Positions 119 through 58,745 of a stretch of DNA of 64,000 bases are shown here, piece by piece. The translations under genes and the position numbers were made by a program. The notes beneath the pieces were generated by a model. That model did not search any database and was not told the DNA's origin. It worked only from the letters and a program-made list of their open reading frames with translations. This DNA comes from Micrococcus terreus (lineage in GTDB: Bacteria > Actinomycetota > Actinomycetes > Actinomycetales > Micrococcaceae): the NCBI RefSeq assembly GCF_900116905.1, contig NZ_FPCG01000001.1, positions 62,001-126,000 on the forward strand. The letters are read 5' to 3'. Position 1 is the first letter of the stretch; every line of letters begins with the position of its first letter.

Positions 119-3100
119 CGGGAGGATCCTGCAGAAGCCGCCTGGCCGTCGTCGGGCCCTGCGGAGGCGCCTGCCTCGCCCTCGGGCTGCCAGAAGGTCT
201 GGACCGTCATCAGGGGACGGCCGGTCATTAGCAGCTGGCCACGGCCCGGAGGCAGCTTCTTGGCGCGGACCCCGTTGATCAGGCTGCCCTCGCCGCGGTC
301 GCCCGAGAGGATCAGGGAGGTGGTGCCGTTGTCCCGCAGGGTGGAGAAGAACGACTCGTACATCCCGCGTGAGGCGCCGCGCACCCGGCGGGTCAGGAAG
401 AAGTGCATGTTCAGGTCCGCCGCCATGGGCACGAATGGCACCAGCGGGGCCAGCGGGGACTGTCCGCCGCCCACGGTCAAGATGTCATAGTCGTCGATCA
501 GGGCGATCATCCGGGCCTTCCGCTGCGGGGTGTCGTTCTCCCCGGTGGGGTCCTGGCGCTTCTTGATCTCGGTCAGCACGGCGTTGGTCAGCTGTGCGCC
601 GATCGCCGAGTTCGTGGCATAGCCGCCCAGGTAGTCCTCCGGAACGGCGTCGCCCAGCACGCGGCGGGGATCCCAGACCACGAAGAACAGCTCGTCGTCC
701 GTGTGGGTGTCCGTGAACCGGCGCACCACATGGCGCAGCAGATTGGACTTGCCGGTCTCCTCGTCGCCCATGACGATGATGTTCCGGTCCTTGTTCTCCA
801 GGTCCAGCCACTCCGGCTCCAGGTCCAGCTCGCGCAGACCGATGGGGAACAGGCCGTGCTGGGCCGGCGTGGGCACGGTGGAGGCCTCCACGATGCCCGG
901 CAGCACCCGGACCTTCATGGCCGCGCCCTGGGTGAACCGGTCCACCTGGGCCACCAGGTCCTTCAGCCCGTCCGTGACCGTCTCCGGATCGTCCTGGCCG
1001 TCGATGCGCGGCAGGGCGATGTGGCCCTGGAGCTTCTGCGGGGACAGGGCCCGGCCCGGGGCCTCCGGGTTCACGTTCTCGGCCAGCTTTCGGTCCACCT
1101 GGGAGTCGCCCGGCTCGGTCAGATGCAACTCGATCCGGTGGGTGAAGAAGGACTGGTGGGTGACCCGGACCTCGTTGTTGCGGTTCACCGAGGTGACCAC
1201 GTGGATCCCGTAGCCGCCGCCGCGGCTGATCAGCGTGACCATCTTGCTGGTGAGGTCCTCGAACTCCTCGGCGATCTGGCCGTAGCCGTCGATCACCAGG
1301 AAGATGTCCGCACTGGGCAGCTCCGGCAGGCGTCCCTCGGCGTGCATCCGGCGCATGGTGGGCAGGGAGTCGATGGCGTGCTTCTCGAAGATCCGCTCGC
1401 GGTGAGCGAGCATGCCCATCACCTCGTCCACCGTGCGAGTGATGACCTCGCGGTTGGTGCGGATGGCCACGCCGCCCACATGCGGCAGGTCCCCCAGGGG
1501 CAGCAGGTTCGCTCCGAGCAGGTCGATGCAGTACACGCCCACCTGCTGCGGGGAATGGGTCAGCGCCAGGGAGGCGACGATGGTGCGCAGCGTGGTGGAC
1601 TTGCCCGACTGGGGCCCGCCGTGGACGATCAGGTTGCCCGAACCGGAGGCGAAGTCGATCTCCCACAGTCCCTGCCACTGCTTGGCCGGGTCGTCCAGGA
1701 TGCCCACAGGGACGCGCAGACGGCCTCCCTCCGGCAGGCGCAGGCCGGTCTCGGTCCGCTGGGGCTCGCCGACCGTGGCGTCCAGGGTGGTGGTCGCGGG
1801 CAGCGGGGGCAGCCAGATCGGCTTGACCGAGCGGGGGAAGGTGCGCAGGGTGTCCATCATGGTGGACATCACCGTGGGCCCGGTGGTGCGCCGGGCCGGT
1901 CCGTCCTTCTTCGTCTCGGACGTCTCGCCCGGGCCACGCTCGAACGGGTCGTCCAGCACCAGGGCGTAGTCCGGGGCCTCCAGCACCGGGGGGATCTCCT
2001 CCTCCGGGTCCCGGCGCTGCTCCTCCTCGAACTGCTCGTCCTCCAGAGGCCCGGAGACGTAGCCGGACTTGAACCGGGAGTAGACCGTGGTGTCCACCTT
2101 CAGGTAGCCGTAGCCCGGCAGCGGGGGCAGGTGGAAGGCGTCCGGGGTGTCCAGCACGGTGCGGGACTCGGACTCGGAGAGGGTGCGCAGGCCCAGCCGG
2201 TAGGACAGGTAGGTCTCCAGGCCGCGCAGCTTGCCGGACTCGATCCGCTGGGAGCTCAGCAGCAGGTGCACGCCGATCGAGCGGCCGATGCGCCCGATGG
2301 ACAGGAACAGGTCGATGAAGTCCGGCCGAGCGGTGAGCAGCTCACCGAACTCGTCGATGATCACCACCAGGTGCGGCAGCGGCTCGATCTCGTTGCCCTG
2401 GGCCAGCTGCTCATCCCGGTGGATCTGGTAGTCGGTGATGTTGGCGATGTTCCCGGCGGCCTTGAGCACCTCCTGGCGGCGCAGGATCTCCCCGTTGAGG
2501 GAGGCGTACACGCGCTCGATCAGGGTGAGGTCGTCCGAGAGGTTGGTGATGATGCCGGTGACCTGCGGGGCGCCTTCGAACGGTGCGAAGGTCGCGCCGC
2601 CCTTGAAGTCCACCAGGACCATGGCCAGCTGGTCCGGGGAGTGGGTGGCGAGCAGACCGAACACCAGCGAGCGCAGCATCTCGGACTTGCCCGAGCCCGT
2701 GGCGCCCACGCACAGTCCGTGGGGGCCCATGCCCAGCTGGGCGGCCTCCTTCAGGTCCAGCAGCACGGGCTTGCCCTTGTCATCCGGGCCGAGTGGGACG
2801 CGCAGGAAGTCCGCGTGGGGGCGGGGCTTCCAGAGCCGCTCCACATCGGCGCGGTCCAGGCGCTGGGAGAGCCCGAGCATCTGCAGGAAGGACAGGGCGG
2901 CGGCGTTCTCCGCGGCCGAGTGCTCCAGGGAGTCCAGGGAGAGCCTCAGCGGCGCCAGCTCCTGGGTCAGGCCGGTGGCGGTGGAGGAGTCGAACTCGTC
3001 CAGCCCGCCTTCGGTGCGCACGGGGTGGCCCTGGTCCTGGGTGCGGTCCTCGAGCAGGAAGCCCACCCGTCCGTCCTCCCGGGGGTGGGGGGTCTCGGAG

Positions 3101-4215
3101 ATGCGGTAGGAGACCTCGGAGGGCTCGTGCAGCCGGTCGGCGCACAGGTGGACCAGGGTGATGCCGCGGGCCTGCAGGCTGAAGTGCGAGTCGCCCATGG
3201 TCAGGTCCTGCACCGGTGTGCCGTAGCCGTCCACCACCACGATCAGGCGGGAGAGCAGCGGGGATCCCTTCGTCACCTCGTGCCCGTACCGGGTGGTCTC
3301 ACCGGCCACCTTGGAGCGGTACTGCAGGTCCTCGTCCAGCAGCTCCAGCAGCGCGCCGGTGTCCGGGGCGATCAGCTTCACCGCACCGGTGACATGCTGG
3401 GTGGAGGTGTCGTCCAGGTGGGGCAGCAGCTCCATCCAGTCCCAGTCCTCGCGGGACTCACGAGGGGCCACCAGGGCCAGGCGCACATCCTCGGGCGACT
3501 GCAGCGCGGCGGCTCCGGCCACCAGGGCACGGGCCACCCGCAGACCGAACTCGCGCGAGCCCACCACGGAGATGTTGCCCGCCGAGTCCAGCGGAACGGT
3601 CAGCGGCATGTCCGGGGCGGTCTCGAAGCGCTGCTTCAGGGCCTCGGCCTCGCGCAGCATGAACTCGTCCTGGACCTGGCTGGCCACCTCGGTCAGGGAG
3701 ACGCTGATCTCCCGGGTGGGGCGGCGGCCAGAGCCGATCCGGGTGTGCAGGAAGTCCTCGTGGTAGCGGCGGCGCTCCCACAGCCGAGCCGGGTCCCGCA
3801 CGATGTCGAACAGGGCGGCCGGCGGGGGACTGGAGGCCCGTGCCGCCAGCTGGGCCGCGGACTCCTCGTCCCGCAGCGTGCGGTGGGTGCGCTCCAGGTA
3901 GCGGTTGTAGGTGTCCCGCAGGGTCTTGCGCCGCCGCGTGGCCTTGCCGCGCTGCGAGGCGAACATGATCAGGGCGGCGATCAGCGAGACGATCATCGCG
4001 ATGGCCCCGACCGCTGCGAACGGGCTCTGCCGGAACGTCATCATCACCATCATGGAGCCGCCCGCGGCCACCATCGGCAGGATCTGCATGATGTTCCCGC
4101 CGCCGCTCTCCTCGGCCGAGGGGTCCACCGGCTGGGGGCCCTGGATGGAGAAGGGACGGTAGAGCCGGGCCGGGGCAGAGGTCCGTGCCGGCCGGTGGAT
4201 CACCTTCTGGGTCAC
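115..4215 (-). CDS. eccC: Type VII secretion FtsK/SpoIIIE ATPase EccC
   Basis: A 1366-residue motor ATPase of an ESX/type VII secretion system, expected at the inner membrane. Residues about 43-90 hold two membrane segments, followed by a DUF-like linker and three FtsK-type ATPase domains. Walker A motifs are visible near residues 503-510 (GATGSGKS), 866-872 (GPQSGKS) and 1150-1157 (GDEETGKS). Walker B-like stretches are VVIIDEF in domain 1, LVIDGYG in domain 2 and ALIDDYD in domain 3, so only domain 1 has the canonical DE. In characterised EccC proteins domain 1 drives transport and the later domains bind Esx C-termini; that is family knowledge. The start is a GTG overlapping the upstream gene by 4 nt, and the stop overlaps the rarD-like start. 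EccC is here one chain, not split into EccCa/EccCb. Confidence 0.95.
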   Translation of the reverse strand: MTQKVIHRPARTSAPARLYRPFSIQGPQPVDPSAEESGGGNIMQILPMVAAGGSMMVMMTFRQSPFAAVGAIAMIVSLIAALIMFASQRGKATRRRKTLRDTYNRYLERTHRTLRDEESAAQLAARASSPPPAALFDIVRDPARLWERRRYHEDFLHTRIGSGRRPTREISVSLTEVASQVQDEFMLREAEALKQRFETAPDMPLTVPLDSAGNISVVGSREFGLRVARALVAGAAALQSPEDVRLALVAPRESREDWDWMELLPHLDDTSTQHVTGAVKLIAPDTGALLELLDEDLQYRSKVAGETTRYGHEVTKGSPLLSRLIVVVDGYGTPVQDLTMGDSHFSLQARGITLVHLCADRLHEPSEVSYRISETPHPREDGRVGFLLEDRTQDQGHPVRTEGGLDEFDSSTATGLTQELAPLRLSLDSLEHSAAENAAALSFLQMLGLSQRLDRADVERLWKPRPHADFLRVPLGPDDKGKPVLLDLKEAAQLGMGPHGLCVGATGSGKSEMLRSLVFGLLATHSPDQLAMVLVDFKGGATFAPFEGAPQVTGIITNLSDDLTLIERVYASLNGEILRRQEVLKAAGNIANITDYQIHRDEQLAQGNEIEPLPHLVVIIDEFGELLTARPDFIDLFLSIGRIGRSIGVHLLLSSQRIESGKLRGLETYLSYRLGLRTLSESESRTVLDTPDAFHLPPLPGYGYLKVDTTVYSRFKSGYVSGPLEDEQFEEEQRRDPEEEIPPVLEAPDYALVLDDPFERGPGETSETKKDGPARRTTGPTVMSTMMDTLRTFPRSVKPIWLPPLPATTTLDATVGEPQRTETGLRLPEGGRLRVPVGILDDPAKQWQGLWEIDFASGSGNLIVHGGPQSGKSTTLRTIVASLALTHSPQQVGVYCIDLLGANLLPLGDLPHVGGVAIRTNREVITRTVDEVMGMLAHRERIFEKHAIDSLPTMRRMHAEGRLPELPSADIFLVIDGYGQIAEEFEDLTSKMVTLISRGGGYGIHVVTSVNRNNEVRVTHQSFFTHRIELHLTEPGDSQVDRKLAENVNPEAPGRALSPQKLQGHIALPRIDGQDDPETVTDGLKDLVAQVDRFTQGAAMKVRVLPGIVEASTVPTPAQHGLFPIGLRELDLEPEWLDLENKDRNIIVMGDEETGKSNLLRHVVRRFTDTHTDDELFFVVWDPRRVLGDAVPEDYLGGYATNSAIGAQLTNAVLTEIKKRQDPTGENDTPQRKARMIALIDDYDILTVGGGQSPLAPLVPFVPMAADLNMHFFLTRRVRGASRGMYESFFSTLRDNGTTSLILSGDRGEGSLINGVRAKKLPPGRGQLLMTGRPLMTVQTFWQPEGEAGASAGPDDGQAASAGSSR

Positions 4216-5372
4216 TGTGCACGGCCTTCCCGACGACGTCCCGCGGCTTCGGCGGCCCCGGCACCTCCGCGCTGACGGTTGGCTTCGGCCAGGATCCCGG
4301 AGGCCAGCTCCGCGGTGGCGCGGCGGTTCTCCGGGCGGATCAGCGGCAGACGGATCCCCACGCCTCCGGCCAGGTGGCGGTCGTAGCGCAGCGCGCCGGC
4401 CATCACTCCCACCCGGGTGAGGGCGGCGGCCTGGGCCAGCGGGTCCAGGGCGGAGGCTCGGTCACTGGCGGTGACCACGGCGGCCACCGGGATGGCGGAG
4501 AGGAACGGGTCCTGCAGCCAGTGCCGCAGGTATCCGGCGGCCTCGTCCACGCCGGTGGCCGTGGCGGGCACGGCGAACACGGCTGCGTGGGCCTGGGTGA
4601 GCACCTGGGCGGTGTCCGGGTGGTCCAGCCCGGTGGGGCAGTCCACCACGGTGACCGGGAAGAATCGGGAGACGGTGGCCAGGGTGGAGGTCAGCCGGGC
4701 TCGGCCGAGAGGGCCGCCGGCCGTGCGCGGACCGGTGAGGTGCAGCTCATCCGGGGCCTGTCCCATGAGCGAGGTGACACCCTGCTGGTTCACCTGGGGA
4801 AGTCCCACCAGACCTGCGGCCAGCTGATCCACGCTCGGGACCGGGACGCCGGCGGTGGAGGGGTCGGAGAGCCGTAGCGCCAGGGCACCCACGCCGGGGT
4901 CCAGATCCAGGGCCGCCACCGGCTCCGGACGCAGTGAGGCGTAGGTCCGCCCGAGCAGGGCGGCCACGGTGGTCTTGCCGGCCCCGCCGCGCAGTGAGAC
5001 CACGGCGATCCGTCGGCCGGTGGTGACCGGGGCCTGGACCCCGCGTGCGGCACTCTGCAGGCGCTCCGCGGTGGGATCGTGCCGGAACAGGTTCCCGGCC
5101 GAGCGCGCCGCCCGGGCCACCAGGGACAGTGCCGGTCGATCGCCCACCCGGCGGGAGAGGGCTCCGGAGACCGGTTCGAACCCGGTGCGGCGATCGTCTT
5201 GGGCACGGGCCAGCTCCTGGCGCATCTGGCCTCGTGAGCTCCAGTCCGCCTGCACGAAGCCCGGCACCTGCCGCGGCGCGGCAGCGGAACGGGACCGGCC
5301 GTCGTCGGGACCTGCCGGATCCGCCCAGGGATCACGCGAGGCGGGGGTGGTGCCCGGGGTCATCGAGCTCAT
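4212..5372 (-). CDS. MinD/ParA-like ATPase of the type VII secretion locus
   Basis: A 386-residue protein with a proline/arginine-rich N-terminal 115 residues and a C-terminal deviant-Walker NTPase domain. The P-loop SLRGGAGKTTVA lies near residues 122-133, and ALDLDPG follows as the switch/Walker A-prime region. It resembles the MinD/ParA-like proteins (EspI type) often encoded next to eccC and eccD, whose role is regulatory or organisational. It starts at an ATG that overlaps the eccD stop by one base (TGATG) and ends overlapping the eccC GTG by 4 nt, so all three are almost certainly one transcript. The usual KGG of the P-loop is RGG here. Its precise role is not known. Confidence 0.8.
   Translation of the reverse strand: MSSMTPGTTPASRDPWADPAGPDDGRSRSAAAPRQVPGFVQADWSSRGQMRQELARAQDDRRTGFEPVSGALSRRVGDRPALSLVARAARSAGNLFRHDPTAERLQSAARGVQAPVTTGRRIAVVSLRGGAGKTTVAALLGRTYASLRPEPVAALDLDPGVGALALRLSDPSTAGVPVPSVDQLAAGLVGLPQVNQQGVTSLMGQAPDELHLTGPRTAGGPLGRARLTSTLATVSRFFPVTVVDCPTGLDHPDTAQVLTQAHAAVFAVPATATGVDEAAGYLRHWLQDPFLSAIPVAAVVTASDRASALDPLAQAAALTRVGVMAGALRYDRHLAGGVGIRLPLIRPENRRATAELASGILAEANRQRGGAGAAEAAGRRREGRAQ
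4227..4240 (-). repeat. GCCGTCGTCGGGAA repeat, one mismatch
   Basis: GACGTCGTCGGGAA on the minus strand, at the 3' end of the ParA-like gene. Confidence 0.5.
5298..5311 (+). repeat. GCCGTCGTCGGGAA repeat, one mismatch
   Basis: GCCGTCGTCGGGAC near the 5' end of the ParA-like gene. Confidence 0.55.
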
Positions 5373-10752: not shown

Positions 10753-10774
10753 CCGGACACCCCCAGCACGACGA

Positions 10775-10805
10775 CGGCGCCTCACCTTCTGCAGGTGAGG
10801 CGCCG
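10775..10805. terminator. Bidirectional terminator between htpX and a minus-strand gene
   Basis: CGGCGCCTCACC (10775-10786) pairs perfectly with GGTGAGGCGCCG (10794-10805) across a 7-nt loop; it lies between convergent genes. Confidence 0.75.
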
Positions 10806-14853: not shown

Positions 14854-15933
14854 TCAGCGGCCGCGGTGGTCGGCCGGAGTCAGTCGCGGCCCGAATCGGG
14901 CGGGCCGGAAGCCGGAGAGCCCGATCAGCCGCACCACCCGCTGACGGTGTCCGACCCAGGGCCGCAGCAGGGCCAGCATGCCGGCGTCATCGGTCCGGCG
15001 GCCGGTCAGGGCCTCTCCCACGTGGTGGGCCAGATGGTAGTCGCCCACCGCCACCAGGTCAGCGGACCCGTGCGTGCGCTGCAGCGCCTCGGCCACCGTC
15101 CACGCCCCGATGCCCGGCACCGCCTGCAGCACTCGACCCAGCTCCGCGGCGGCATCCACTCGGTGCGACCCTGCGGTGCGACCATGCCGGTCCAGGGTCT
15201 GAGCCCGCGCGGCCACCTGCACCATGGCCCTGGACTGGCCGGGCTGGACCCACCCGGCATGCCACTGCCAGCTCGGGATCAGCCGCACCGCCTCAGCGCG
15301 CGGGGCCATCAGCATCCCCGCGGGCGCCGGGTCCGGAGCAGGCTCGCCGAACGTCCGCACCAGCCACCGCCACCCGGCCCGGGCCTGATCGTGCGTGACC
15401 TTCTGCTCCAGCACCACCGTGAACAGCTGATCCACCAGCCGACCGGTCGCCGGCAGCCGCAGGCCCGGGTGGGTCCGGCGCACGCGCACCACGGAGGAGG
15501 GCAGCGCCCGTGACCACCCCGCACTCCCGTGCCGCTGCGAGGTGAGCAGGTCATCGAAAACCGGCCAGCCGTCGTCGGGAAGTCCCAGCAGTGCGGGCGC
15601 AGACCGGATGGCCGCGTCCGCGCCGGGACCCCATGCCATCACGTGGACCGGACCGGGGACCAGGGGAGAGGGCGCCGGGCGGACCAGGACGGTGACCGGC
15701 AGGGCCGGGGCGGTGGGATCGTCCGGATCCGGCTGGCGGTGGCAGAGCCAGACGCCGTCCGGCCGGGACTGGACGGTGGGATCAGCATGACCGCGTTGCA
15801 GGACGCCCAGGGTCAGGCGCACATCCACCGGGACGCCCGGCTCCAGCACCGCCTGGGCGTCCGGGGTCGGCAGCGCACCCAGGACAGTGGGGGAGGTGCC
15901 CGCAGGGTCGCCGGGTCGCTGGAGGCTGCTCAC
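14854..15933 (-). CDS. DNA-3-methyladenine glycosylase (AlkA-like, HhH-GPD)
   Basis: A 359-residue base-excision repair enzyme that removes alkylated bases. The helix-hairpin-helix is at LQAVPGIGAWTVAEALQR and is followed by the GPD region with the catalytic Asp in VAVGDYHLAHH, near residues 288-322. The N-terminal half (about 1-170) is proline-rich and carries the degenerate AlkA-type domain. GTG start. It is divergent from cystathionine beta-synthase with about 110 bp between. One exact copy of the GCCGTCGTCGGGAA repeat lies in the coding region and encodes part of LPDDG. Confidence 0.88.
   Translation of the reverse strand: MSSLQRPGDPAGTSPTVLGALPTPDAQAVLEPGVPVDVRLTLGVLQRGHADPTVQSRPDGVWLCHRQPDPDDPTAPALPVTVLVRPAPSPLVPGPVHVMAWGPGADAAIRSAPALLGLPDDGWPVFDDLLTSQRHGSAGWSRALPSSVVRVRRTHPGLRLPATGRLVDQLFTVVLEQKVTHDQARAGWRWLVRTFGEPAPDPAPAGMLMAPRAEAVRLIPSWQWHAGWVQPGQSRAMVQVAARAQTLDRHGRTAGSHRVDAAAELGRVLQAVPGIGAWTVAEALQRTHGSADLVAVGDYHLAHHVGEALTGRRTDDAGMLALLRPWVGHRQRVVRLIGLSGFRPARFGPRLTPADHRGR
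15568..15581 (+). repeat. GCCGTCGTCGGGAA repeat, exact
   Basis: Inside the AlkA-like gene. One of six exact copies in the window. Confidence 0.7.
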
Positions 15934-16031
15934 CGCATGATGGTCTCACGCGCGGCGGACAGGATTCCGCGCTGGGCGGACGAACGTGACCTGCTGTGGC
16001 CTCGGACTGCTGTGGTGTCCGGGGTCGCCGG

Positions 16032-16037
16032 TACCGT
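16032..16037 (+). promoter_or_regulatory. -10-like element before cystathionine beta-synthase
   Basis: TACCGT, 7 nt before the ATG at 16045; no RBS, hence probably leaderless. Confidence 0.45.
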
Positions 16038-16044
16038 GGGGGCC

Positions 16045-17628
16045 ATGACGAATGAGGCACCCCAGACACCCGCCGCCCAGCCCGGACCCGAGCAGCACCA
16101 GATGCAGTATGCCGAGAACGTGCTCGGGCTGATCGGGAACACCCCCCTGGTGCGGTTGAACCGGGTGACCGAGGGGATCCGTGCCACCGTGCTGGTCAAG
16201 CTGGAGTACCTGAACCCGGGAGGCTCCGTGAAGGACCGGATCGCCCTGAAGATGCTCGAGGAGGCTGAGGCGGACGGACGCCTGGCCCCCGGCGGCACCG
16301 TGGTGGAGCCGACCTCCGGCAACACCGGCGTGGGCCTGGCCATGGTGGCCCAGCTCAAGGGCTACCGTTCCGTGTTCGTCACGCCGGACAAGGTTGGTCA
16401 GGAGAAGCGGGACGTGCTGCGCGCCTACGGCGCCGAGGTGGTGGTGACCCAGACCTCCGTCCCGCCCGAGTCTGAGGACTCCTACTACGGGGTCTCCAAC
16501 CGTCTGGAGCGGGAGATCCCCGGGGCGTATCAGCCCAACCAGTTCTTCAACCCCGCAGCGCCGGCCTCGCACTACGAGACCACCGGCCCGGAGATCTGGC
16601 GGGACACTGCCGGACGCATCACGCACTTTGTGGCCGGCGCAGGGACCGGCGGCACCGTCACCGGCACGGGCCGGTACCTCAAGGAGGTCTCCGCGGACCG
16701 CGCTGAGGGACCGGTGCGGATCGTGGTCGCAGACCCGGACGGCTCCATCTACTCCGGCGGCACCGGACGTCCGTACTTCGTGGAGGGCGTGGGCGAGGAC
16801 ATGTGGCCGGGCAACTATGACCAGTCCGTCCCAGACGAGGTCCATGCCGTCTCCGACGCCGAGTCCTTCGCCATGACCCGCCGGCTGGCCGCCGAGGAGG
16901 GCCTGCTGGTGGGCGGCTCCTCCGGCATGGCGGTAGTGGCCGGGCTGCGTGCGGCCCAGGACCTCACCGAGGAGGACGTCATGGTGATCCTGCTGCCCGA
17001 CTCCGGCCGCGGCTACCTGGGCAAGATCTTCAGCGACACCTGGATGGACGAGCAGGGCTTCACCACGGTGACCGCCGAGTCCGTGCTGCCCGAGGGCGTG
17101 GTGGGGGACGGCGCTCGCCAGCCCCGCGCGGTGGTGGCTCCCGGCGCCACCTCCGAGCCCGGCGAGGGCGAGCAGAGGACTCCCGACGGCGGCCCCTCGC
17201 CCTGGCAGGCCACGGTCGCCGAGGTCCTGGGAGACAAGGACGCCTGGATGCCCGGATCCCTCCCGAAGGTGGTCACCGCCAGCCGGGACACCACGATCGC
17301 CGAGGCCATCTCCACCATGAACCGGTACGGCGTGGACGCGCTCCCGGTGGTCGGCGCCCCGCGGGATGATCTGCGCACCGGAGAGATCCACGGCACCGTG
17401 CAGGTCACCGGGCTGGCTGAACTGCTCGCCTCCGGACAGGCCGGTCCGCAGGAGCCTGTCGGTGAGCACGCCGGTCCGGCCCTGCCGCGCGTCAACGTCA
17501 GCTCCACCCTGATCGAGGCCAGGGAACGGCTCGAGGACACCGGTGCACCGGCTCTGCTGGCCATGCAGGACGGCGTGGTGGCCGGGATCGTTACCCTGCA
17601 CGACCTGCTGGCCCACGTCACCCACTGA
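16045..17628 (+). CDS. cbs: Cystathionine beta-synthase
   Basis: A 527-residue PLP enzyme that condenses homocysteine with serine to cystathionine, the first step of reverse transsulfuration. The PLP lysine is in GGSVKDRIA near residue 63, followed by the serine-binding PTSGNTGVGLAM and the phosphate loop GAGTGGTVTG. A pair of CBS domains fills residues about 400-527. The domain order (catalytic core plus CBS pair) separates it from plain cysteine synthase. I chose the ATG at 16045, 172 codons inside the longest open frame, since the family begins here and a -10 lies 7 nt ahead. The next gene acts on its product. Confidence 0.94.
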   Translation: MTNEAPQTPAAQPGPEQHQMQYAENVLGLIGNTPLVRLNRVTEGIRATVLVKLEYLNPGGSVKDRIALKMLEEAEADGRLAPGGTVVEPTSGNTGVGLAMVAQLKGYRSVFVTPDKVGQEKRDVLRAYGAEVVVTQTSVPPESEDSYYGVSNRLEREIPGAYQPNQFFNPAAPASHYETTGPEIWRDTAGRITHFVAGAGTGGTVTGTGRYLKEVSADRAEGPVRIVVADPDGSIYSGGTGRPYFVEGVGEDMWPGNYDQSVPDEVHAVSDAESFAMTRRLAAEEGLLVGGSSGMAVVAGLRAAQDLTEEDVMVILLPDSGRGYLGKIFSDTWMDEQGFTTVTAESVLPEGVVGDGARQPRAVVAPGATSEPGEGEQRTPDGGPSPWQATVAEVLGDKDAWMPGSLPKVVTASRDTTIAEAISTMNRYGVDALPVVGAPRDDLRTGEIHGTVQVTGLAELLASGQAGPQEPVGEHAGPALPRVNVSSTLIEARERLEDTGAPALLAMQDGVVAGIVTLHDLLAHVTH

Positions 17629-23584: not shown

Positions 23585-23598
23585 GTCCCGACGACGGC
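23585..23598 (-). repeat. GCCGTCGTCGGGAA repeat, one mismatch
   Basis: GCCGTCGTCGGGAC on the minus strand, in the untranslated leader of the helicase gene. Confidence 0.6.
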
Positions 23599-23759
23599 GC
23601 GCACCCTGCGCTGTCCGGTGCGGCTGGGTGCCACGAGGGAGGCGGGACTGCCAGGTGAGATGGAGCGGGCGTGAAGTTGGACCGCGCCCCGGGGAGCACC
23701 GGAGCCACCGATGCACAGCGGTGCCCAACCGGCCGCTGGACCCCACCGAAGGACACCAC

Positions 23760-26171
23760 GTGACTGATCACGAGACCCCTCAGACCACCACCGAGCAGAC
23801 CGAGAACCCCGAGATCTCCCAGACCACCGCAGCCGGCGGGGAACAGCAGCCAGCCGTGATCGTCGACACGATCGACGACCGCCCCGAGCAGGCTGAGCAG
23901 CCGGAACATGCTCAGCAGTCAGAGCGCGCAGACCGCGCAGATCGCACCCAGACCCGCGCTGAGGACTCCGATCTCCCCGCCGGTGAGGACGAGGGCCGCC
24001 CCGGCTTCGCGGACATGAACCTGGATCCCCGCGTCCTGCGGGCCGTGACCGATCTGGGCTACGAGACCCCCTCACCCATCCAGGCAGAGACCATCCCGCT
24101 GCTGCTCAACGGGCGCGACGTCGTCGGGCTGGCCCAGACCGGCACCGGCAAGACCGCCGCCTTCGCGGTGCCGGCCCTGTCCCGCCTGGCCGAGAACGCG
24201 GACCTGGACGGCCCGGCCTCCCAGCCGCAGATCCTGGTGCTGGCCCCCACCCGCGAGCTGGCGCTGCAGGTGGCCGAGGCGTTCACCTCCTACGCCAAGC
24301 ACCTGCCCAACGTCTCCGTGCTGCCGGTCTACGGCGGCGCCCCGTACGGGCCGCAGCTCTCCGGCCTGCGCCGCGGCGCCCAGGTGGTGGTCGGCACCCC
24401 TGGCCGCGTGATCGACCACCTGGAGAAGGGCTCCCTGGACCTCTCCGAGCTGCGCTACATGGTGCTGGACGAGGCCGATGAGATGCTGCGCATGGGCTTC
24501 GCCGAGGAGGTGGACCGCATCCTGGCCTCCACGCCGCGGGAGAAGCAGACCGCGCTGTTCTCGGCCACCATGCCCAACGCCATCCGCCGGATCTCCAAGA
24601 AGTACCTCAACGACCCGGTGGAGGTGACGGTGGCGGCCAAGTCCTCCACCGCCATGAACATCCGCCAGCGCTTCGTGCAGGTCACCCACCAGTGGAAGCT
24701 GGAGGCGATGACCCGCATCCTGGAGACCGAGGAGCACGACGGCGTGATCGCCTTCGTCCGCACCCGCAACTCCACCGAGGAGCTCACCACCAAGCTCAAC
24801 GCCCGTGGCTTCCGTGCCGCGGCGATCTCCGGTGACATCGCGCAGAACCAGCGGGAGAAGACCGTGGAGAACCTGCGTGCTGGCCGGATCGACATCCTGG
24901 TCGCCACCGATGTGGCCGCCCGTGGCCTGGACGTGGAGCGGATCAGCCACGTCATCAACTACGACATCCCGCATGACACCGAGTCCTACGTGCACCGGAT
25001 CGGCCGCACCGGCCGCGCCGGACGCTCCGGCGATGCCGTGCTGTTCATGACCCCGCGCGAGAAGTACCTGCTGCGGGCGATCGAGAAGGCCACGCGCCAG
25101 CAGGTCGAGCAGATGCACATGCCCTCGGTCTCTGACGTGAACTCCTCCCGCCTGCAGCGCTTCAGCGACCAGATCACCCAGACCCTGGCCGAGCAGGAGA
25201 CCCAGGTCTTCCGCGACCTGGTGGAGTCCTACGTGGCCGAGCACGGCGTGGCCCCCGAGGACGTGGCCGCCGCACTGGCGCACATGGCCCAGGGCGGCCG
25301 TCCGCTGCTGGTGGAGGAGCCGGACCTGCCCCAGCCCAAGTTCGGCCGCTACGACCGTGAACGTGAGGACGGCGGCCGTGAGCGCGGCAACCGGGACGGA
25401 CGCGGCTCCCGTGGTCCGAACCGCGAGCCCGCCGAGGGCAACGCCACCTACCGCATCGCCCTGGGCCGCCAGGACCGCGTGATGCCCGGCAACATCGTGG
25501 GTGCGCTGGCCAACGAGGCCGGCCTGCGCTCGAACCAGATCGGCGGGATCGACATCCGCTCCAACCACTCGCTGGTGGAGCTGCCGGAGAACCTCTCCCC
25601 GGATCAGTGGGCCGCCCTGCGGGAGACCACCATCAACGGCCGTCCCATCCAGCTGCAGAAGGACACCGGCCGTCCGGTGCGCGCCGAGCGCGGCGGACGT
25701 GGGAATTCTCACGACGACGGCCACTCCGGTGGGCGCGATCGCTCGCGGGAGGATCGCGGCGGTTTCCGCTCCGGTGGATTCCGCAAGGACGGCCCCCGTG
25801 GCGGTCGCGACGGCGGCGGCTACCGCGGACAGGGCGGACGCCCGGAGCGCAATGACCGGTTCAACCGTGACGAGCGCCCTGACCGCGGGGAGCGCACCGA
25901 TCGGTTCAACCGTGATGATCGGTTCAACCGGGACGACCGTCCCGCCCGGTACTCACGTGATGACCGCGCGGATCGCGGCGGAGACGCCCGTGAGGGCCGT
26001 GAGGATCGTGGTCCGCGCGGCTACCAGGGTGAGGGCGATCGCCGCGGCGGATCCGGCTTCCGCTCCGGTGGATCCAAGGGCGGTTTCGGCGGCTCTCAGG
26101 GCGGCAAGGGAGCCCGTGCAGGCAAGCCCCGCTGGAAGTCCTCCGGCCCCGGTGGCCGCAAGAAGTACTGA
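23760..26171 (+). CDS. deaD: DEAD-box ATP-dependent RNA helicase
   Basis: An 803-residue RNA helicase of the CsdA/DeaD type, active in RNA folding, ribosome assembly and cold adaptation. An acidic Glu/Gln-rich N-terminus (about 1-80) is followed by the Q motif and core: AQTGTGKT (motif I), PTREL (Ia), DEAD (motif II), SAT (III), and HRIGRTGRAGR (VI). A DbpA-like RNA-binding domain lies near residues 555-640. The tail (about 640-803) is a low-complexity Arg/Asp/Gly-rich region with RFNRDDR-type repeats, likely disordered. I chose the GTG at 23760, preceded by GAAGGAC, over the 112-codon longer open frame. Confidence 0.93.
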   Translation: MTDHETPQTTTEQTENPEISQTTAAGGEQQPAVIVDTIDDRPEQAEQPEHAQQSERADRADRTQTRAEDSDLPAGEDEGRPGFADMNLDPRVLRAVTDLGYETPSPIQAETIPLLLNGRDVVGLAQTGTGKTAAFAVPALSRLAENADLDGPASQPQILVLAPTRELALQVAEAFTSYAKHLPNVSVLPVYGGAPYGPQLSGLRRGAQVVVGTPGRVIDHLEKGSLDLSELRYMVLDEADEMLRMGFAEEVDRILASTPREKQTALFSATMPNAIRRISKKYLNDPVEVTVAAKSSTAMNIRQRFVQVTHQWKLEAMTRILETEEHDGVIAFVRTRNSTEELTTKLNARGFRAAAISGDIAQNQREKTVENLRAGRIDILVATDVAARGLDVERISHVINYDIPHDTESYVHRIGRTGRAGRSGDAVLFMTPREKYLLRAIEKATRQQVEQMHMPSVSDVNSSRLQRFSDQITQTLAEQETQVFRDLVESYVAEHGVAPEDVAAALAHMAQGGRPLLVEEPDLPQPKFGRYDREREDGGRERGNRDGRGSRGPNREPAEGNATYRIALGRQDRVMPGNIVGALANEAGLRSNQIGGIDIRSNHSLVELPENLSPDQWAALRETTINGRPIQLQKDTGRPVRAERGGRGNSHDDGHSGGRDRSREDRGGFRSGGFRKDGPRGGRDGGGYRGQGGRPERNDRFNRDERPDRGERTDRFNRDDRFNRDDRPARYSRDDRADRGGDAREGREDRGPRGYQGEGDRRGGSGFRSGGSKGGFGGSQGGKGARAGKPRWKSSGPGGRKKY

Positions 26172-26789: not shown

Positions 26790-26803
26790 GCCGTCGTCGG
26801 GAA
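26790..26803 (+). repeat. GCCGTCGTCGGGAA repeat, exact, intergenic
   Basis: Noncoding copy 5 nt after a stop codon. Confidence 0.75.
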
Positions 26804-34972: not shown

Positions 34973-34978
34973 ATCCTA
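34973..34978 (-). promoter_or_regulatory. -10 element of leaderless thyA-folA
   Basis: TAGGAT on the minus strand, 7 nt before the GTG at 34965; it overlaps the end of the GntR gene. Confidence 0.5.
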
Positions 34979-35422
34979 CCGGCGTGGAGCGTCTCCGGTT
35001 CCGGGTCCGGCCGGTGCGGGGGGACCTTCAAGGAGTTCCCGACGACGGCCCAGCAGTCCCAGCAGATCCTCCCATCCGAGCCCTGCGGCGCGGGCGCGGG
35101 TGAGCAGCTGGTCGGCGGCCTCGTCCACCTCGGTGGGGGTGGGCGTGGGCGGGGCGCCGGAGACGGTGGTGCCGTGGCGGCGGCGGGACTCCACGAACCC
35201 GGCGGACTCCAGTTCCCGGTAGGCCCGGGCCACGGTCCCCACCGCGATGCCCAGGTCCGCAGCCAGGGCCCGCACAGTGGGCAGCCGGCTGCCAGGGGCC
35301 AGGGCGCCCGTGGCGATCAGCTCGGTGACCTGGGAGCGGATCTGCTCGAACGGCGGGACCGCCGAGCCCAGGTCCACGGACAGGTCCGGGGGAGGGGAGG
35401 TCCCTGGTGAGACCGAGCTCAT
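34976..35422 (-). CDS. GntR-family regulator, YtrA-like
   Basis: A 148-residue repressor. The N-terminal winged helix lies at about 22-90 ([56 protein letters not shown]), and a short helical C-terminal part fits the YtrA subfamily. It overlaps the large membrane-protein gene by 4 nt (ATGA) and is cotranscribed with it. YtrA regulators usually repress their own operon, and the palindrome at 37301-37320 before the first gene is the likely operator. Its stop overlaps the thyA promoter region. Confidence 0.88.
35036..35049 (-). repeat. GCCGTCGTCGGGAA repeat, exact
   Basis: Minus-strand copy inside the GntR gene near its 3' end. Confidence 0.7.
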
Positions 35423-43947: not shown

Positions 43948-44772
43948 CTACGGCTCGAAGACCACCGTGGTCTGGGACCCGGCCAGCTCGAAGCCCAGCG
44001 TGTCCGCCAGATGCTGTGAGGCCCGGTGTCCCATCCGCGCTCGCCACTGGGGGATCAGCCCCTCGGTGAACGCCTCCTCCATCGCCACGCCGGCCGCATA
44101 GGCGCCCAGGCCCAGGCGGCGCACATCCGGACGGACCAGCACGCTCACCTGCCCGATCAGCCCCTGCCACTCCTCGTATCCTGACCCGGCCACCGGGTCA
44201 GCCGAGCCCTGCAGGTCATCCTGTGCGCCGTCGTCGGGAACGAGGGTGAAGGTGGAGTCCAGGCCGCTCAGGCCCGCCTCAGCCACATCATCGGCCGGGC
44301 ACAGCGACTCCAACTGCGCAGCGTGGTCCGTCTCATAGGACACCGCCAGGGTCTCCGAGCGGTCCATCTGCGGGACGCCGTCCGCGTAGTACAGCGCGGC
44401 CTCGCCCAGCGAGCGGACCCGGTGGGAGGCGCCCAGCCGGATGAAGGTGGACTCCAGCGCCAGCACCTCGTCGTCCACGTCCCGCGCGGCGTCCAGCAGC
44501 CACCGCGGCCCGTAGAGGACCGAGGCGCCGTAGAGCCGGACGAAGGTGGCCACCTGCTCGTCCTCGCGTCCGGCCCGGCGGGCCTCGCCCTCCGCAGGGC
44601 GTCCCGACGGCGGCCCCTCACCATCCGTGGGCACCTCCAGGCGCGCTGGGCGCGAGGACCCGGCGGAGGAGCCGGCGGCACCGATCAGGCCGGTCAGGGA
44701 GTCGTCGGGCAGACCGAGGATGCGTGACCAGGCCAGGGCGACGATCTGGCGGGTGTGGGAGTCCAGGGGCAT
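43948..44772 (-). CDS. GNAT-family acetyltransferase
   Basis: A 274-residue protein. The C-terminal part has acetyltransferase features: the strand EEWQGLIGQVSVLVRPDVRR with an acetyl-CoA loop RRLGLGAYAAGVA near residues 212-224, then ASQHLADTLGFELAGSQT. The N-terminal half contains a 35-residue Pro/Gly/Glu-rich insertion (about 25-65). ATG 5 nt after pfkA on the same strand, so it is cotranscribed. Substrate unknown. An exact copy of the 14-mer repeat encodes VPDDG in the middle. Confidence 0.8.
   Translation of the reverse strand: MPLDSHTRQIVALAWSRILGLPDDSLTGLIGAAGSSAGSSRPARLEVPTDGEGPPSGRPAEGEARRAGREDEQVATFVRLYGASVLYGPRWLLDAARDVDDEVLALESTFIRLGASHRVRSLGEAALYYADGVPQMDRSETLAVSYETDHAAQLESLCPADDVAEAGLSGLDSTFTLVPDDGAQDDLQGSADPVAGSGYEEWQGLIGQVSVLVRPDVRRLGLGAYAAGVAMEEAFTEGLIPQWRARMGHRASQHLADTLGFELAGSQTTVVFEP
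44227..44240 (+). repeat. GCCGTCGTCGGGAA repeat, exact
   Basis: Inside the GNAT gene next to pfkA. Confidence 0.7.
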
Positions 44773-46470: not shown

Positions 46471-47898
46471 TCAGTTCTGTTCGGTGGGCGTCGAGGAGGT
46501 CGGGACCTGCGAGACCTGGACGTCCACGGTGGCGAAGGCCAGATCGGTGTCCAGGTGCAGGACGGTGTCCCCGGGGGCGTCCGCGATCAGCTGGCGGTCC
46601 AGGTCATGGTTGGCGTTCTCGTAGGTCATGTCTGACCCGGGGGTCGGGTGGGTGATGGTGCTGAAGCCCTGGTCGGTGCTCAGCAGCACGTCCACATCGT
46701 CCGGCACCAGGATGGTCACGGTGGAGAAGTCCACCTCGATCGGCACGGTGAGCTCACCGCCGGGCGGCAGCTCCAGGTCCGTCAGATCGCTCAGGTCGAT
46801 CAGTCCCGTGCTGAACCGCATCTCATAGCCGGACTCGGAGCTGCCCTGCAGCGTTCTGAGCTCGGGATCGAAATGGATCAGGTTGCCGGTGGTCGAGGCG
46901 ATCACCGGCAGGGTCAGGATCGCGGTGGCCACGGTCAGCCCGCCGCCGGTCCTCCCGCGCAGGGCGGCGAACAGCACGCCCAGGGCCATCACGCCCAGGG
47001 CGGTGGCGGAGGCGGTGACCCAGACCAGGCTCCAGGGCACCTCGTAGACCCCCAGGTACTTGAGGAGCCCGACGACGGCCGCGGCCACCAGCGCCAGGCC
47101 CACCACGGCGGCCTGCAGGGATCCCGGCAGAGCGCGAGCCGGGGGCTTCCGCGCCGGGCCCACCGGTGCGGACGGTCGGGAGTGGCCCGCCTCGCCATAG
47201 GGGTCGGGCACCGTGGGGGGAGCGACGGTCTGCTGGCTCATGGGGTCCTCTGTCTCATGGAGTGCCGAGGGAACGGCAGGATCGGTCTCGGCATGCCCGG
47301 CAGGTCGCTGTGCCGCCGTGGAGCCGGAACCGGACGGGGCCGTCGTCGTGTCCGCGCTGCCGTACCAGTCGGTACGGCTGGGGGCCAGGTGGACGGTGGG
47401 TGCCGGAGCTGCCGGCGGGGTGCGCGGCGCAGGACCGGCAGATCCGGAGGGAAGCTGACGGGGGCGGTCGCGGCGGGCGATCACCATCCAGATGAACAGG
47501 CCGATCAGCACGGCCCCAGCCACCGAGCCCGGTCCGCGCCAGGCCCCGCGGTCACTGGTGGCGAAGAGCAGGTCCTGGGCGCCCAGCACGGTGAGGATCA
47601 CCGCACCGGTCATCCCGGCGGTCCAGCGGCCGGCGCCGGCCTCGCGCAGGTGGATGCGGCCGTCCGGCTCGGGCAGCAGCAGCCAGCACAGGCCGTAGAA
47701 CAGCACGGCCACCCCGATCGTCAGGAAGCAGGCGACCACGAACACGGCACGGGCCAGCGTCCGGTCGATCTCCAGACGGTCGGCGATCCCGGACACCACG
47801 CCGCCGAACCAGCGCTCAGGGGACCGGACGGTCTGCAGGGAGCGGATCCAGCCGTAGAAGCCGGGGTCGGGGGAGCGGTGCTCGAGGTTCGAGGTCAT
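46471..47898 (-). CDS. PspC- and LiaF-like membrane protein
   Basis: A 475-residue protein. The N-terminal PspC domain (about 25-85) reads SPERWFGGVVSGIADRLEID plus one helix. More helices lie at about 95-145, followed by a long Pro/Ala/Thr-rich linker (150-255), four helices at about 265-345 and a C-terminal beta-rich domain (about 350-475) with repeats of VDFSTVTILVPDDVDV type, as in LiaF/toast-rack proteins. LiaF-type proteins hold a partner kinase inactive until envelope stress. The ATG at 47898 lies 135 bp from the divergent PspC-kinase start; GGAAGG is upstream. Confidence 0.82.
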   Translation of the reverse strand: MTSNLEHRSPDPGFYGWIRSLQTVRSPERWFGGVVSGIADRLEIDRTLARAVFVVACFLTIGVAVLFYGLCWLLLPEPDGRIHLREAGAGRWTAGMTGAVILTVLGAQDLLFATSDRGAWRGPGSVAGAVLIGLFIWMVIARRDRPRQLPSGSAGPAPRTPPAAPAPTVHLAPSRTDWYGSADTTTAPSGSGSTAAQRPAGHAETDPAVPSALHETEDPMSQQTVAPPTVPDPYGEAGHSRPSAPVGPARKPPARALPGSLQAAVVGLALVAAAVVGLLKYLGVYEVPWSLVWVTASATALGVMALGVLFAALRGRTGGGLTVATAILTLPVIASTTGNLIHFDPELRTLQGSSESGYEMRFSTGLIDLSDLTDLELPPGGELTVPIEVDFSTVTILVPDDVDVLLSTDQGFSTITHPTPGSDMTYENANHDLDRQLIADAPGDTVLHLDTDLAFATVDVQVSQVPTSSTPTEQN

Positions 47899-53465: not shown

Positions 53466-53479
53466 TTCCCGACGACGGC
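53466..53479 (-). repeat. GCCGTCGTCGGGAA repeat, exact, between rplK and rplA
   Basis: Noncoding minus-strand copy in the 134-nt spacer between two ribosomal genes. Confidence 0.75.
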
Positions 53480-57419: not shown

Positions 57420-58745
57420 ATGACCGCCACCCTGACCCAGCCGCGCCGCATCGAGGCGGCGCCGCAGGTGCGCCCTGCGTCCGGCCCTGCCGGAGTGGGG
57501 ACGCCCTCAGGCGGCCGGGCGCGCCTGGCCCTGCTGGACGTGCTGCGGCTGGTGGCCGCAGTGTCCGTGGTCCTGTTCCACTGGACGGCGTGGCATCACG
57601 GCAACTGGGGACGCCATGGCGCCCCGGCGGCCGAGGCCTGGCCCGAGCTCAGCCAGTGGAGCTCCGTCGGAGCCTTGGGCGTGCAGCTGTTCTTCATCAT
57701 CTCCGGGTTCGTGATCCTGCTCTCCTGCTACGGCAGGGCGCCGGCCCGATTCATCGGATCCCGCATCGGCAGGCTCTACCCGGCCTACTGGGTGGCCGTG
57801 CTGGCGGTGGTCGTGCTGCTGTTCGTCCTGTGGCCCGAGCTGGGGGTGAACCGCAGCCCGTCGGAGATCCTGCCCAACCTGACGATGTTCCAGGGCGGGA
57901 TGGACGGGGTGGGCCATCTGGACGGCGTCTACTGGACGCTGTGGGTGGAGATGAAGTTCTACCTGTGGATCCTGGCGTTCATGCTGGTGGGCATGACCCG
58001 AGCGCGCGTGCTCGTCTTCGCAGCGCTGTGGCCCGTGGCCGGCACGGTGCTGCACACCGTCCTGTCCGGCGCCGGACAGAACGTGGCCTGGGTCCAGGTC
58101 ATGCTGTTCCCCGAGTACTCGGCACTGTTCGCGGGGGGCATGGTGCTGTTCCTGATCCACCGTTTCGGTCACACCTGGACCCGGTGGGGAGTGCTGGCGG
58201 TGAACGTGGTCCTGGGCTCGGCCTGGTCCGCGCACATCCAGCGCAGAGAGACCGCAGAGCTCACCGGCTATGACTACCCGCTTCCACTGTTCTGGGCGAT
58301 CGTCGCCGGGCTGTTCGGGGTGGTGGCCCTGCTGACCCTGACGCGCCTGTCCCGTGTCCAGGTGCCCGGCGCGGCACTGGCCGGATCCCTGACCTACCCG
58401 GTCTACCTGGTCCACCAGCTGTGGGGATGGTGGCTGATCATGCTGCTCTCACCGCTGCTGCCGAAGGAGGCCGTGCTGATCTTGACGCTGGGGGCCGTGC
58501 TGCTGGCGGCATGGCGCATCCACCGCAGGGTGGAGACCCCGCTGGGACCGCGCCTGCAGCGCACGGTGACGGCCGTCGTCGGGAATCTGCCCGTGGTGGG
58601 GCCGTGGCTGGCCCGGCCCCGGGGAGACCGGTCGGCGGCCCACCGTGCCGTCCCGCAGCGCTACCGACTGTCCGTGGAGCCTGCAGCACTGCGCGGATCA
58701 CCGGTGGTGACCACGATTCCGCCGCACCGGATTCCGATGCGGTGA
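57420..58745 (+). CDS. Acyltransferase-3 family membrane protein (OafA-like)
   Basis: A 441-residue polytopic acyltransferase that typically O-acylates cell-surface polysaccharide or peptidoglycan sugars. The first helix carries LLDVLRLVAAVSVVLFHWTA with the catalytic His near residue 56. GALGVQLFFIISGFVILLS and RFIGSRIGRLYPAYWVAV are the family's R-x10-R-type region, and about ten membrane helices follow. The C-terminus (about 380-441) is basic and cytoplasmic. The ATG at 57420 has AGGAGGA about 10 nt upstream. It is inserted between rplL and rpoB, with an exact 14-mer repeat near its end. Confidence 0.88.
   Translation: MTATLTQPRRIEAAPQVRPASGPAGVGTPSGGRARLALLDVLRLVAAVSVVLFHWTAWHHGNWGRHGAPAAEAWPELSQWSSVGALGVQLFFIISGFVILLSCYGRAPARFIGSRIGRLYPAYWVAVLAVVVLLFVLWPELGVNRSPSEILPNLTMFQGGMDGVGHLDGVYWTLWVEMKFYLWILAFMLVGMTRARVLVFAALWPVAGTVLHTVLSGAGQNVAWVQVMLFPEYSALFAGGMVLFLIHRFGHTWTRWGVLAVNVVLGSAWSAHIQRRETAELTGYDYPLPLFWAIVAGLFGVVALLTLTRLSRVQVPGAALAGSLTYPVYLVHQLWGWWLIMLLSPLLPKEAVLILTLGAVLLAAWRIHRRVETPLGPRLQRTVTAVVGNLPVVGPWLARPRGDRSAAHRAVPQRYRLSVEPAALRGSPVVTTIPPHRIPMR
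58572..58585 (+). repeat. GCCGTCGTCGGGAA repeat, exact
   Basis: Near the 3' end of the acyltransferase gene, where it encodes part of AVVGN, a different frame from the PDDG-coding copies. Confidence 0.7.

Follow-up and report, generated by a model that had tools for sequence, protein, structure and literature searches.

A candidate DNA-uptake-sequence-like self tag in Micrococcus terreus and related Micrococcaceae

Known uptake tags and other short genomic words

Sequence-tagged DNA uptake is known only in the Neisseriaceae and the Pasteurellaceae, according to the accessible text of a 2025 paper (PMC12616744). The DNA uptake sequence (DUS) of the Neisseriaceae, GCCGTCTGAA, is read by the minor pilin ComP. 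The accessible part of the relevant study describes dialects of this word, copies that lie inside genes and others that form inverted pairs at terminators, with copy numbers from 943 to over 3400 in Neisseria (PMC3630211). The uptake signal sequence (USS) of the Pasteurellaceae, AAGTGCGGT, is likewise short, spread over the genome and split into dialects, and its receptor is not established as far as the accessible portions of the sources go (PMC12616744, PMC5031613). The word considered here, a 14-mer of Micrococcus terreus, is unrelated in sequence to the USS, which is gammaproteobacterial and was compared by its description in the literature only. Short words may also spread through genomes for other purposes. 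KOPS and SRS are short, genome-wide polar sequences that serve FtsK or SpoIIIE; unlike them, the M. terreus word has no orientation bias in strand counts or runs. HIP1, a cyanobacterial palindrome (GCGATCGC), is highly over-represented and its function is unsettled; the M. terreus word shares these two traits but is non-palindromic and has dialects.

The likeness to the DUS covers several features. A non-palindromic word of about 10-14 bp on both strands, present within and between genes, paired in inverted orientation at hairpins that resemble terminators, differing by species dialect and accompanied by competence genes, matches what the accessible text on Neisseria reports (PMC3630211). We therefore read the 14-mer, with a probability of roughly 0.65, as the species-preferred form of a self tag of this type, carried by Citricoccus-like and Micrococcus species, since its signatures are those of Neisseria-type uptake sequences. 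There are differences, to be sure. The sequence is not that of the DUS, the common GCCGTC start being probably a coincidence; the host is a high-GC Gram-positive organism with Tad/Flp pili and ComEA/ComEC; and copies are fewer (143 exact, or 541 of GCCGTCGTCGKG) than the Neisseria figures given above.

Copies in the window

The window is the whole 64,000-nucleotide stretch that was analysed. An initial annotation, made from its letters, had listed 12 copies of the 14-mer, and a scan bears out every place, strand and mismatch number; the list was nonetheless incomplete, lacking two one-mismatch copies (Table 1) and five two-mismatch copies, which start at 6108, 17180, 25708, 30489 and 44601, all on the reverse strand. 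With up to three mismatches allowed, the window holds 40 matches, where shuffled sequences average 16.75 and reach 26 at most. The exact copies had been judged to exceed what base composition would give, and an order-4 Markov model of the window indeed expects 0.0017 where six are found. Within window genes, as delimited by our own caller, three exact copies stand against an average of 0.005 over 200 synonymous-codon shuffles. The surroundings first described for the copies at 23585, 26790, 53466 and 56040 also hold.

Table 1. Positions of the 14-mer, its variants and one core copy in the window
Feature	Positions	Strand	Setting
Exact 14-mer GCCGTCGTCGGGAA	15568..15581	+	N-terminal part of PALP/CBS protein ORF 15529-17628, A-V-V-G; probably coding
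Exact 14-mer	26790..26803	+	Noncoding, 4 bases after small ORF 26549-26785
Exact 14-mer	35036..35049	-	Inside GntR-type regulator gene 34976-35377 (-), sense, frame offset 1
Exact 14-mer	44227..44240	+	Antisense in GNAT acetyltransferase-like gene 43948-44772 (-), reads P-D-D-G
Exact 14-mer	53466..53479	-	rplK (L11)-rplA (L1) spacer, 37 bases past L11 stop, antisense to genes
Exact 14-mer	58572..58585	+	Inside acyltransferase gene 57420-58745 (+), sense, frame 0
One-mismatch copy GACGTCGTCGGGAA	4227..4240	-	Coding
One-mismatch copy GCCGTCGTCGGGAC	5298..5311	+	Noncoding by own caller
One-mismatch copy GCCGTCGTCGTGAA	18385..18398	+	Coding; missing from the initial annotation
One-mismatch copy GCCGTCGTCGGGAC	23585..23598	-	Noncoding by own caller, before DEAD-box RNA helicase gene 23721-26171
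One-mismatch copy GCCGTCGTCGTGAA	29731..29744	+	Coding; missing from the initial annotation
One-mismatch copy TCCGTCGTCGGGAA	56040..56053	+	Noncoding, before rplJ (L10)
Two-mismatch copy GCCGTCGTCGGGCC	145..158	+	Antisense in FtsK/SpoIIIE-family gene 115-4215
Two-mismatch copy GCCGTCGTCGGGCT	47066..47079	-	Coding
10-mer core GCCGTCGTCG	10769..10778	-	3' foot of strong predicted hairpin (85-nt fold, -48.8 kcal/mol); example of a terminator-like setting

The copy at 15568 had been placed by our caller in the noncoding class, and it is probably coding because alignments with relatives begin at residue 4 of the 699-aa ORF starting at 15529. At the 44227 site the whole word is present in the aligned congeneric genome G002, and CGTCGTCGGGAA in the aligned G005, with alignment gaps adjoining.

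Genome-wide excess

The excess extends beyond the window: the genome, Citricoccus-like within the Micrococcaceae and 3,087,520 bases long (approximately 3.09 Mb), contains 143 exact copies, and the reversed pattern, used as a control, occurs once. Coding and noncoding copies were compared in a 464 kb sample, 15% of the genome, where genes were called with a simple codon-score caller of our own rather than with an annotation pipeline; at least one copy (15568) was probably misclassed. By this caller 15 of 35 copies, one of them probably coding, lie in noncoding DNA, which makes up 10% of the sample; none was found in any of 20 Markov sequences. Coding copies number 21 as counted (20 distinct sites), against a mean of 0.19 and a maximum of 1 in 100 synonymous shuffles. 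The 20 sites occupy five of the six frame and strand classes, the commonest readings being P-D-D-G (9/20) and A-V-V-G (5/20). It had been argued at the outset that the copies are not accounted for by codon use, and the shuffles and the noncoding excess agree. An open ranking of 10-mers in the same sample also puts pieces of the word first, in coding DNA after correction by synonymous shuffles as well as in noncoding DNA.

The variant profile is sharp and recognition-like. Single-base variants in the 464 kb are absent at positions 3, 4, 6-10 and 12 and occur once each at positions 1 and 13, and positions 2, 5, 11 and 14 tolerate change. Flanks carry little information, without a conserved longer unit. 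The preferred form in M. terreus is GGCCG(T>C)CGTCGGGAA, a signal at the DNA level with the core GCCGNCGTCG.

Dialects in relatives

Among the 20 genomes counted, relatives carry related words, made of the GCCGNCGTCG core with a species-specific fifth base. Counts of GCCG[T/G/C]CGTCGKG, for which the sole control was the reversed pattern, a control that ignores codon structure, are 541/64/210 in M. terreus (541 being GCCGTCGTCGKG), 151/413/232 in G002, 150/261/393 in G007, 492/28/100 in G152, which we infer to be M. lylae, and 209/120/153 in G167, which we take to be M. luteus NCTC 2665. The fifth base is thus T over G by 541:64 in M. terreus and 492:28 in G152, and the ratio is 151:413 in G002, which belongs to the same genus as M. 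terreus. Genomes with such a strong change of dialect are 79% identical over aligned blocks. Sample densities of the 14-mer in G002 are biased upward, its stretches having been partly chosen around its own copies; the whole-genome counts are free of this bias. In a sample of M. lylae NBRC 15355 (G061), the core ranks first among noncoding 10-mers (54 vs 1.96 expected). In M. luteus it occurs 27 times in noncoding DNA (vs 1.6) and 93 times in coding DNA (vs 40), in stretches where G+C makes up only 67% of all letters and where some letters are therefore probably masked.

Other genera were followed in loci that are orthologous and not independent. Twenty-five Arthrobacter loci display some excess (GCCGTCGTCG coding 38 vs 19.8; GCCG[ACG]CGTCG coding 171 vs 73.7, noncoding 16 vs 2.4), as do two Sinomonas loci for the core (coding 11 vs 2.0, noncoding 0) and, weakly, two Zhihengliuella loci; the core may therefore predate Citricoccus and Micrococcus or reach beyond them. 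Excess of the core was not seen in the Glutamicibacter and Paeniglutamicibacter loci, nor that of GCCGTCGTCG in the Agrococcus loci.

Stops, hairpins and inverted pairs

Noncoding copies have a preferred place. Eleven of the 15 noncoding exact copies lie within 60 nt past a stop codon, against a background fraction of 0.28 (P = 0.0003), and eight of these 11 are antisense to the gene. Core copies form seven inverted pairs within 100 bp where 1.5 are expected (P = 0.0005); the figures are 7 vs 2.0 in M. lylae (P = 0.0055) and 3 vs 1.6, not a significant excess, in M. luteus (P = 0.22).

The word might, instead of an uptake tag, be a chromosomal site for a cytoplasmic DNA-binding protein acting on the nucleoid, on segregation or as a global regulator, and a change in the specificity of that protein would create the dialects. 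The sharp profile over 10-14 bp, the mixed orientation and the wide scatter fit non-polar binding, and enrichment in noncoding DNA fits as well. However, a post-stop position and inverted pairs are unusual for a site that organises chromosomes, and so are copies in five of six coding frames and a strong dialect change at 79% identity. We consider this explanation unlikely.

The same setting brings to mind a transcription terminator or another element working at the RNA level, the word then belonging to hairpins that close operons at their 3' ends. Besides the position and the antisense orientation just described, a predicted stem adjoins 24 of 39 noncoding core copies vs 32 of 83 coding ones (P = 0.02), and hairpins bear the word in both arms at three loci (L043, 2870/2908; L033, 5154/5194; L031, 10949/11015). 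AGGTG-like letters upstream of spacer copies were considered as an extended unit and discarded, as they correspond to hairpin arms in part of the copies. Against a terminator stand the 20 of 35 copies within genes, in five of six frames and at about 100 times the codon-shuffle expectation. Pairing of the word in folds fails to separate the classes, being found for 39/39 noncoding and 81/83 coding copies, and uptake tags of Neisseria are described at the very same position in the accessible text (PMC3630211). The terminator reading is accordingly improbable.

Distribution along the genome

The initial annotation had described a mixed orientation, unlike that of KOPS. Strands are in fact balanced, at 67 forward and 76 reverse for the 14-mer genome-wide and 131/131 for the 13-mer. 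Along the contigs, which are unordered, one-strand runs are not significant among 100 copies listed out of 143: 48 of 88 neighbours share a strand vs 43.7 expected (P = 0.21). Even spacing was not seen in these 100 copies either (gap CV 1.14). Chi sites, which mark recombination hotspots, are shorter than the 14-mer. A signal of this or another recombinational kind would agree with the dense and symmetric genome-wide distribution and with the high recombination of M. luteus (gamma/u 10.87 in the accessible text of PMC7890812), but the lack of significant strand runs and the preference of the copies for spacers behind stop codons make it very improbable. When genes were ranked in quartiles of codon score, a weak proxy for foreign DNA, the 10-mer GTCGTCGGGA showed no depletion where codon use is atypical: it occurs 18.1 times per 100 kb in the lowest quartile and 5.3 in the top one.

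Conservation of individual sites

Of the M. terreus core sites that could be aligned to G002, 18/42 kept GCCGNCGTCG, against 9.8% of 2431 phase-matched control windows; dropping two sites fetched for G002's own exact copy leaves 16/40. Core conservation at own sites was without excess in five other Citricoccus samples (11/63 pooled vs 10-17% in controls), and the excess is thus seen in G002 only. One site illustrates a swap of dialect, with GGCCGTCGTCGGGA in M. terreus and GGCCGGCGTCGTGC in G002, next to a 3-base gap. The initial annotation had named absent conservation at noncoding positions of close relatives as evidence against its reading, and that absence is what the three alignable noncoding copies of the window (5298, 23585 and 53466) present. 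This counts against site-by-site conservation; turnover of sites together with change of dialect would explain it.

Numerous copies, enriched in spacers and sometimes paired, could also be thought of as an interspersed mobile repeat of the REP or MITE kind, and 18 of 23 rows aligned to relatives do have gaps at or beside the site. These gapped rows lie in poorly alignable DNA, though, and decide nothing. At three coding sites (L018, L019 and L039:2905) G002 aligns ungapped and has an identical or related word, which means that these copies are not insertions in the M. terreus lineage; the flanks are nearly uninformative and coding copies sit in five frames. A mobile origin is, if anything, a shade less credible than a recombination signal. 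Codon and amino-acid usage with mutational bias (Asp-Asp and Val-Val runs in a GC-rich genome), which the dominance of P-D-D-G and A-V-V-G would suit, was rejected as the cause through the synonymous shuffles and the noncoding excess, is at odds with opposite fifth-base preferences within one genus, and has next to no probability. A methylation site is not favoured on the letters of the word, which differ from the four methylated motifs that the accessible text reports for another genome, M. luteus SA211 (PMC6346199).

Competence machinery and a possible mechanism

Natural transformation of M. luteus needs comEA/comEC and Flp pili, as described in the accessible parts of two studies (PMC6370729, PMC8467076). 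The com genes that the initial annotation had suggested looking for are present in M. terreus, where ComEA (SLBB and helix-hairpin-helix domains) adjoins ComEC (Competence and lactamase domains), both reading frames being open; the genome also has two Tad pilus loci. ComEC was found in 58 of the 59 genomes searched, and all 20 genome entries searched for ComEA and TadE-type proteins have them (two of these entries, G003 and G067, look like one genome). With such near-universal presence, the machinery does not predict which genomes carry the tag, and it was dropped as an explanation of the distribution. The candidate reading as an uptake sequence, called speculative at first, is partly supported by signatures read from the genomes: dialects, inverted pairs, post-stop position and competence genes.

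The following sequence of events can be proposed for an uptake tag. A surface DNA receptor belonging to the ComEA/ComEC and Tad-Flp pilus transformation machinery would bind the word on free DNA, and tagged DNA of the same species would thereby be taken up preferentially. Each recombination of a tagged fragment into the chromosome would favour tagged over untagged alleles, and the word would build up at any place where protein or RNA tolerates it; in spacers this would be mostly just behind stop codons, partly in hairpins that may act as terminators. A changed specificity of the receptor would then shift the fifth base and the tail, creating species dialects. We would give slightly better than even odds to the broader proposal that Citricoccus and Micrococcus, the transformable M. 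luteus among them, possess a third, independently evolved system of self-tagged uptake, the first in Gram-positive bacteria and the first served by Tad/Flp pili, in which a single base at position 5, be it T, G or C, would serve as a dialect code and set the species that exchange DNA. If true, a tag in Micrococcaceae would mean a third origin, in a different type of cell envelope and with a different pilus system, and would place a sequence barrier in the way of genes passing from one named species to another. It would make DNA recognition in M. luteus directly testable with short fragments.

A receptor tracking the dialect might be expected to group M. terreus with G152. None of six Com/Tad proteins does so, and none was a convincing candidate: identities within the own genus are 63-72% for TadE and TadF and 55-64% for ComEA, and those with G152 are 43-45% and 50%, respectively. 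Residues common only to M. terreus and G152 are absent from ComEA and amount to 0-3 columns in five Tad proteins. The upper figure is that of TadF, a weak lead: three columns are shared only with G152, and nine other Micrococcus give 0-1 by the same count.

A repeated word in Micrococcus terreus

The initial annotation had listed twelve copies of an over-represented 14-mer in the window, six exact and six mismatched; all are present as described, together with two one-mismatch and five two-mismatch copies that the list lacked. Chance would indeed yield far less than one exact copy (0.0017 under a Markov model of the window vs. 6 present). The whole genome (3,087,520 bases, 31 contigs) holds 143 exact copies, against one of the reversed pattern, in the mixed orientation already noticed (67 forward, 76 reverse), while the 13-mer GCCGTCGTCGGGA occurs 262 times, 131 per strand.

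Codon use had been discounted as a source of the set, rightly so. In a 464 kb sample (the window and a further 20 stretches from contigs C12 and C18), our own caller found 415 genes covering 90% of the sequence and placed 35 exact copies as 20 coding and 15 noncoding; the copy at 15568, classed as noncoding, is probably coding. Synonymous-codon shuffles (n = 100) gave a mean of 0.19 coding copies and a maximum of 1, vs. 21 counted, one copy in overlapping genes being counted twice, and the coding copies occupy five of the six frame classes. Noncoding DNA held 15 copies vs. 0 in 20 Markov sequences. When 10-mers were ranked openly, with no word chosen beforehand, pieces of the motif led in both coding and noncoding DNA. 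Single-base variants were absent at positions 3, 4, 6-10 and 12 of the 14-mer in this sample and occurred once each at positions 1 and 13; the second-choice bases are C at position 5 and C or T at position 14.

Distribution and dialects

The nearest named relatives of a window protein are Citricoccus and Micrococcus. A search of 59 genomes found the exact 14-mer in 24: beside M. terreus, seven genomes of its genus (Citricoccus-like in our reading) carry 4-9 copies and the rest of the 59 carry 0-3. Among 395 Micrococcaceae genomes, the 13-mer count of M. terreus is followed by 205 in an inferred M. lylae (G152), with 19-28 in the seven other same-genus genomes, 6-36 in ten other Micrococcus genomes and at most 18 in each of the remaining 376. 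In M. lylae NBRC 15355, GGCCGTCGTCG occurs 506 times vs. 45 for its reversed control, and 13 exact 14-mers turn up in a 400 kb sample, where 0.03 are expected.

The fifth base varies between species, a dialect of the word.

Fifth base of GCCG[X]CGTCGKG in whole genomes (20 counted; reversed-pattern controls 4 to 30 per genome)
Genome	T	G	C	Remark
G000 (M. terreus)	541	64	210	
G001 (Citricoccus zhacaiensis)	161	414	251	
G002 (same genus)	151	413	232	
G005 (same genus)	152	407	232	
G003 (same genus)	125	283	302	
G004 (Citricoccus sp. CH26A)	120	209	215	
G006 (same genus)	117	212	221	
G007 (same genus)	150	261	393	
G152 (inferred M. lylae)	492	28	100	
G167 (presumed M. luteus)	209	120	153	
G181	49	24	46	low
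G008 (another genus)	40	12	35	low

In the other eight Micrococcus genomes with a clear excess, no single base is favoured so strongly (T 124-269, G 83-157, C 85-196). G002 is 79% identical to M. terreus at the DNA level across aligned blocks totalling 41.7 kb, and the reversal of their fifth base is hard to derive from the proteomes of one genus; the top coding word of G002 against shuffles is GCCGGCGTCG (100 vs. 34.7). At M. terreus sites of the core, the shared 10-mer, that align to G002, GCCGNCGTCG is kept in 18 of 42 (16 of 40 after dropping two sites whose G002 stretch had been chosen for its own exact copy) vs. 9.8% of 2431 control windows; five other genomes pooled kept 11 of 63, no excess over control.

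Setting and machinery

Of the 15 exact noncoding copies, 11 are found no more than 60 nt downstream of a stop codon, vs. 28% of random noncoding positions, and eight of these 11 are antisense to the preceding gene. Inverted pairs of the core within 100 bp number 7 vs. 1.5 expected in the M. terreus sample and 7 vs. 2.0 in M. lylae, the excess in M. luteus (3 vs. 1.6) not being significant; some pairs form long hairpins carrying the word in both arms. Neisseria uptake sequences have a like arrangement, with inverted pairs at terminators, according to the text available of PMC3630211.

The com genes that the initial annotation proposed to look for are there: ComEA, which has SLBB and helix-hairpin-helix domains, adjoins ComEC, which combines Competence and beta-lactamase-like domains, on contig C18, at about 49.4-52.8 kb. 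Of two Tad loci, the first encodes a small DUF4244 protein that looks like the Flp pilin of M. luteus, then a TadE protein; the second encodes TadE and T2SSF proteins and one 51% similar to M. luteus TadF, both comparisons following the accessible part of PMC6370729. As far as the accessible text goes, M. luteus, with two tad clusters, needs ComEA/ComEC and Flp pili for transformation (PMC6370729, PMC8467076).

In C. zhacaiensis (C6:28823-29610) the comEA match consists of two overlapping fragments, one of them containing a TGA in frame, and in G007 the ComEC match is split between C1:1545632-1549085 and the distant 1631859-1632596; judging from these matches, the competence genes of the two genomes may be disrupted or rearranged. 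In the window, an ATPase (115-4215) that contains two stretches matching FtsK_SpoIIIE, as well as other AAA matches, adjoins a CbiA/MinD-type protein (4212-5372), a pair that we take to be reminiscent of a type VII secretion locus.

A candidate uptake tag

What the sequence evidence shows is an over-represented word, the dialects and setting of its copies, and the presence of the machinery genes. As to function, we put at roughly two in three the probability that the word is a DNA uptake tag. Tagged DNA would be preferentially taken up via a surface receptor, recombination of tagged alleles would let the word accumulate, and receptor change would drive dialect change. Several results count against this: copy number is modest, neither even spacing nor depletion from atypical genes was seen, the conservation in relatives hoped for at noncoding sites failed for the alignable window copies, and no receptor was found among the Com/Tad proteins compared. 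Titles and abstract openings of a mostly open-access literature, bioRxiv excluded, yielded no uptake-sequence motif in Actinobacteria, Micrococcus or Gram-positives, nor did a search with the word itself match a description of one in these bacteria; the term 'uptake sequence' is absent from the searchable text of three M. luteus competence papers (PMC4322843, PMC12849477, PMC8467076).

Other over-represented words

Seven Agrococcus genomes strongly over-represent another 10-mer, GGCGGATGCG, in 140 kb of orthologous, non-independent loci (L138, L140, L143, L144, L146, L149, L150), with 34 coding copies vs. 3.8 in synonymous shuffles and 4 noncoding vs. 0.65. This 10-mer may represent a second uptake-like word in Actinobacteria; the 464 kb M. 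terreus sample has only 2 copies. M. lylae (G061; L175-L194) over-represents GGCGATCGCC, which we take to contain the HIP1 octamer, in coding DNA (27 vs. 7.6 in shuffles). A 440 kb M. luteus sample (G167; L195-L196, L215-L234) contains 12 copies, noncoding by the caller, of the AT-richer repeat TCCCGAACGAAA, probably a REP-like element. In G002 (L051-L070, L159, L160) the top noncoding 10-mer is TCGACTGAAA (10 vs. 0.06), which probably belongs to a short interspersed repeat.
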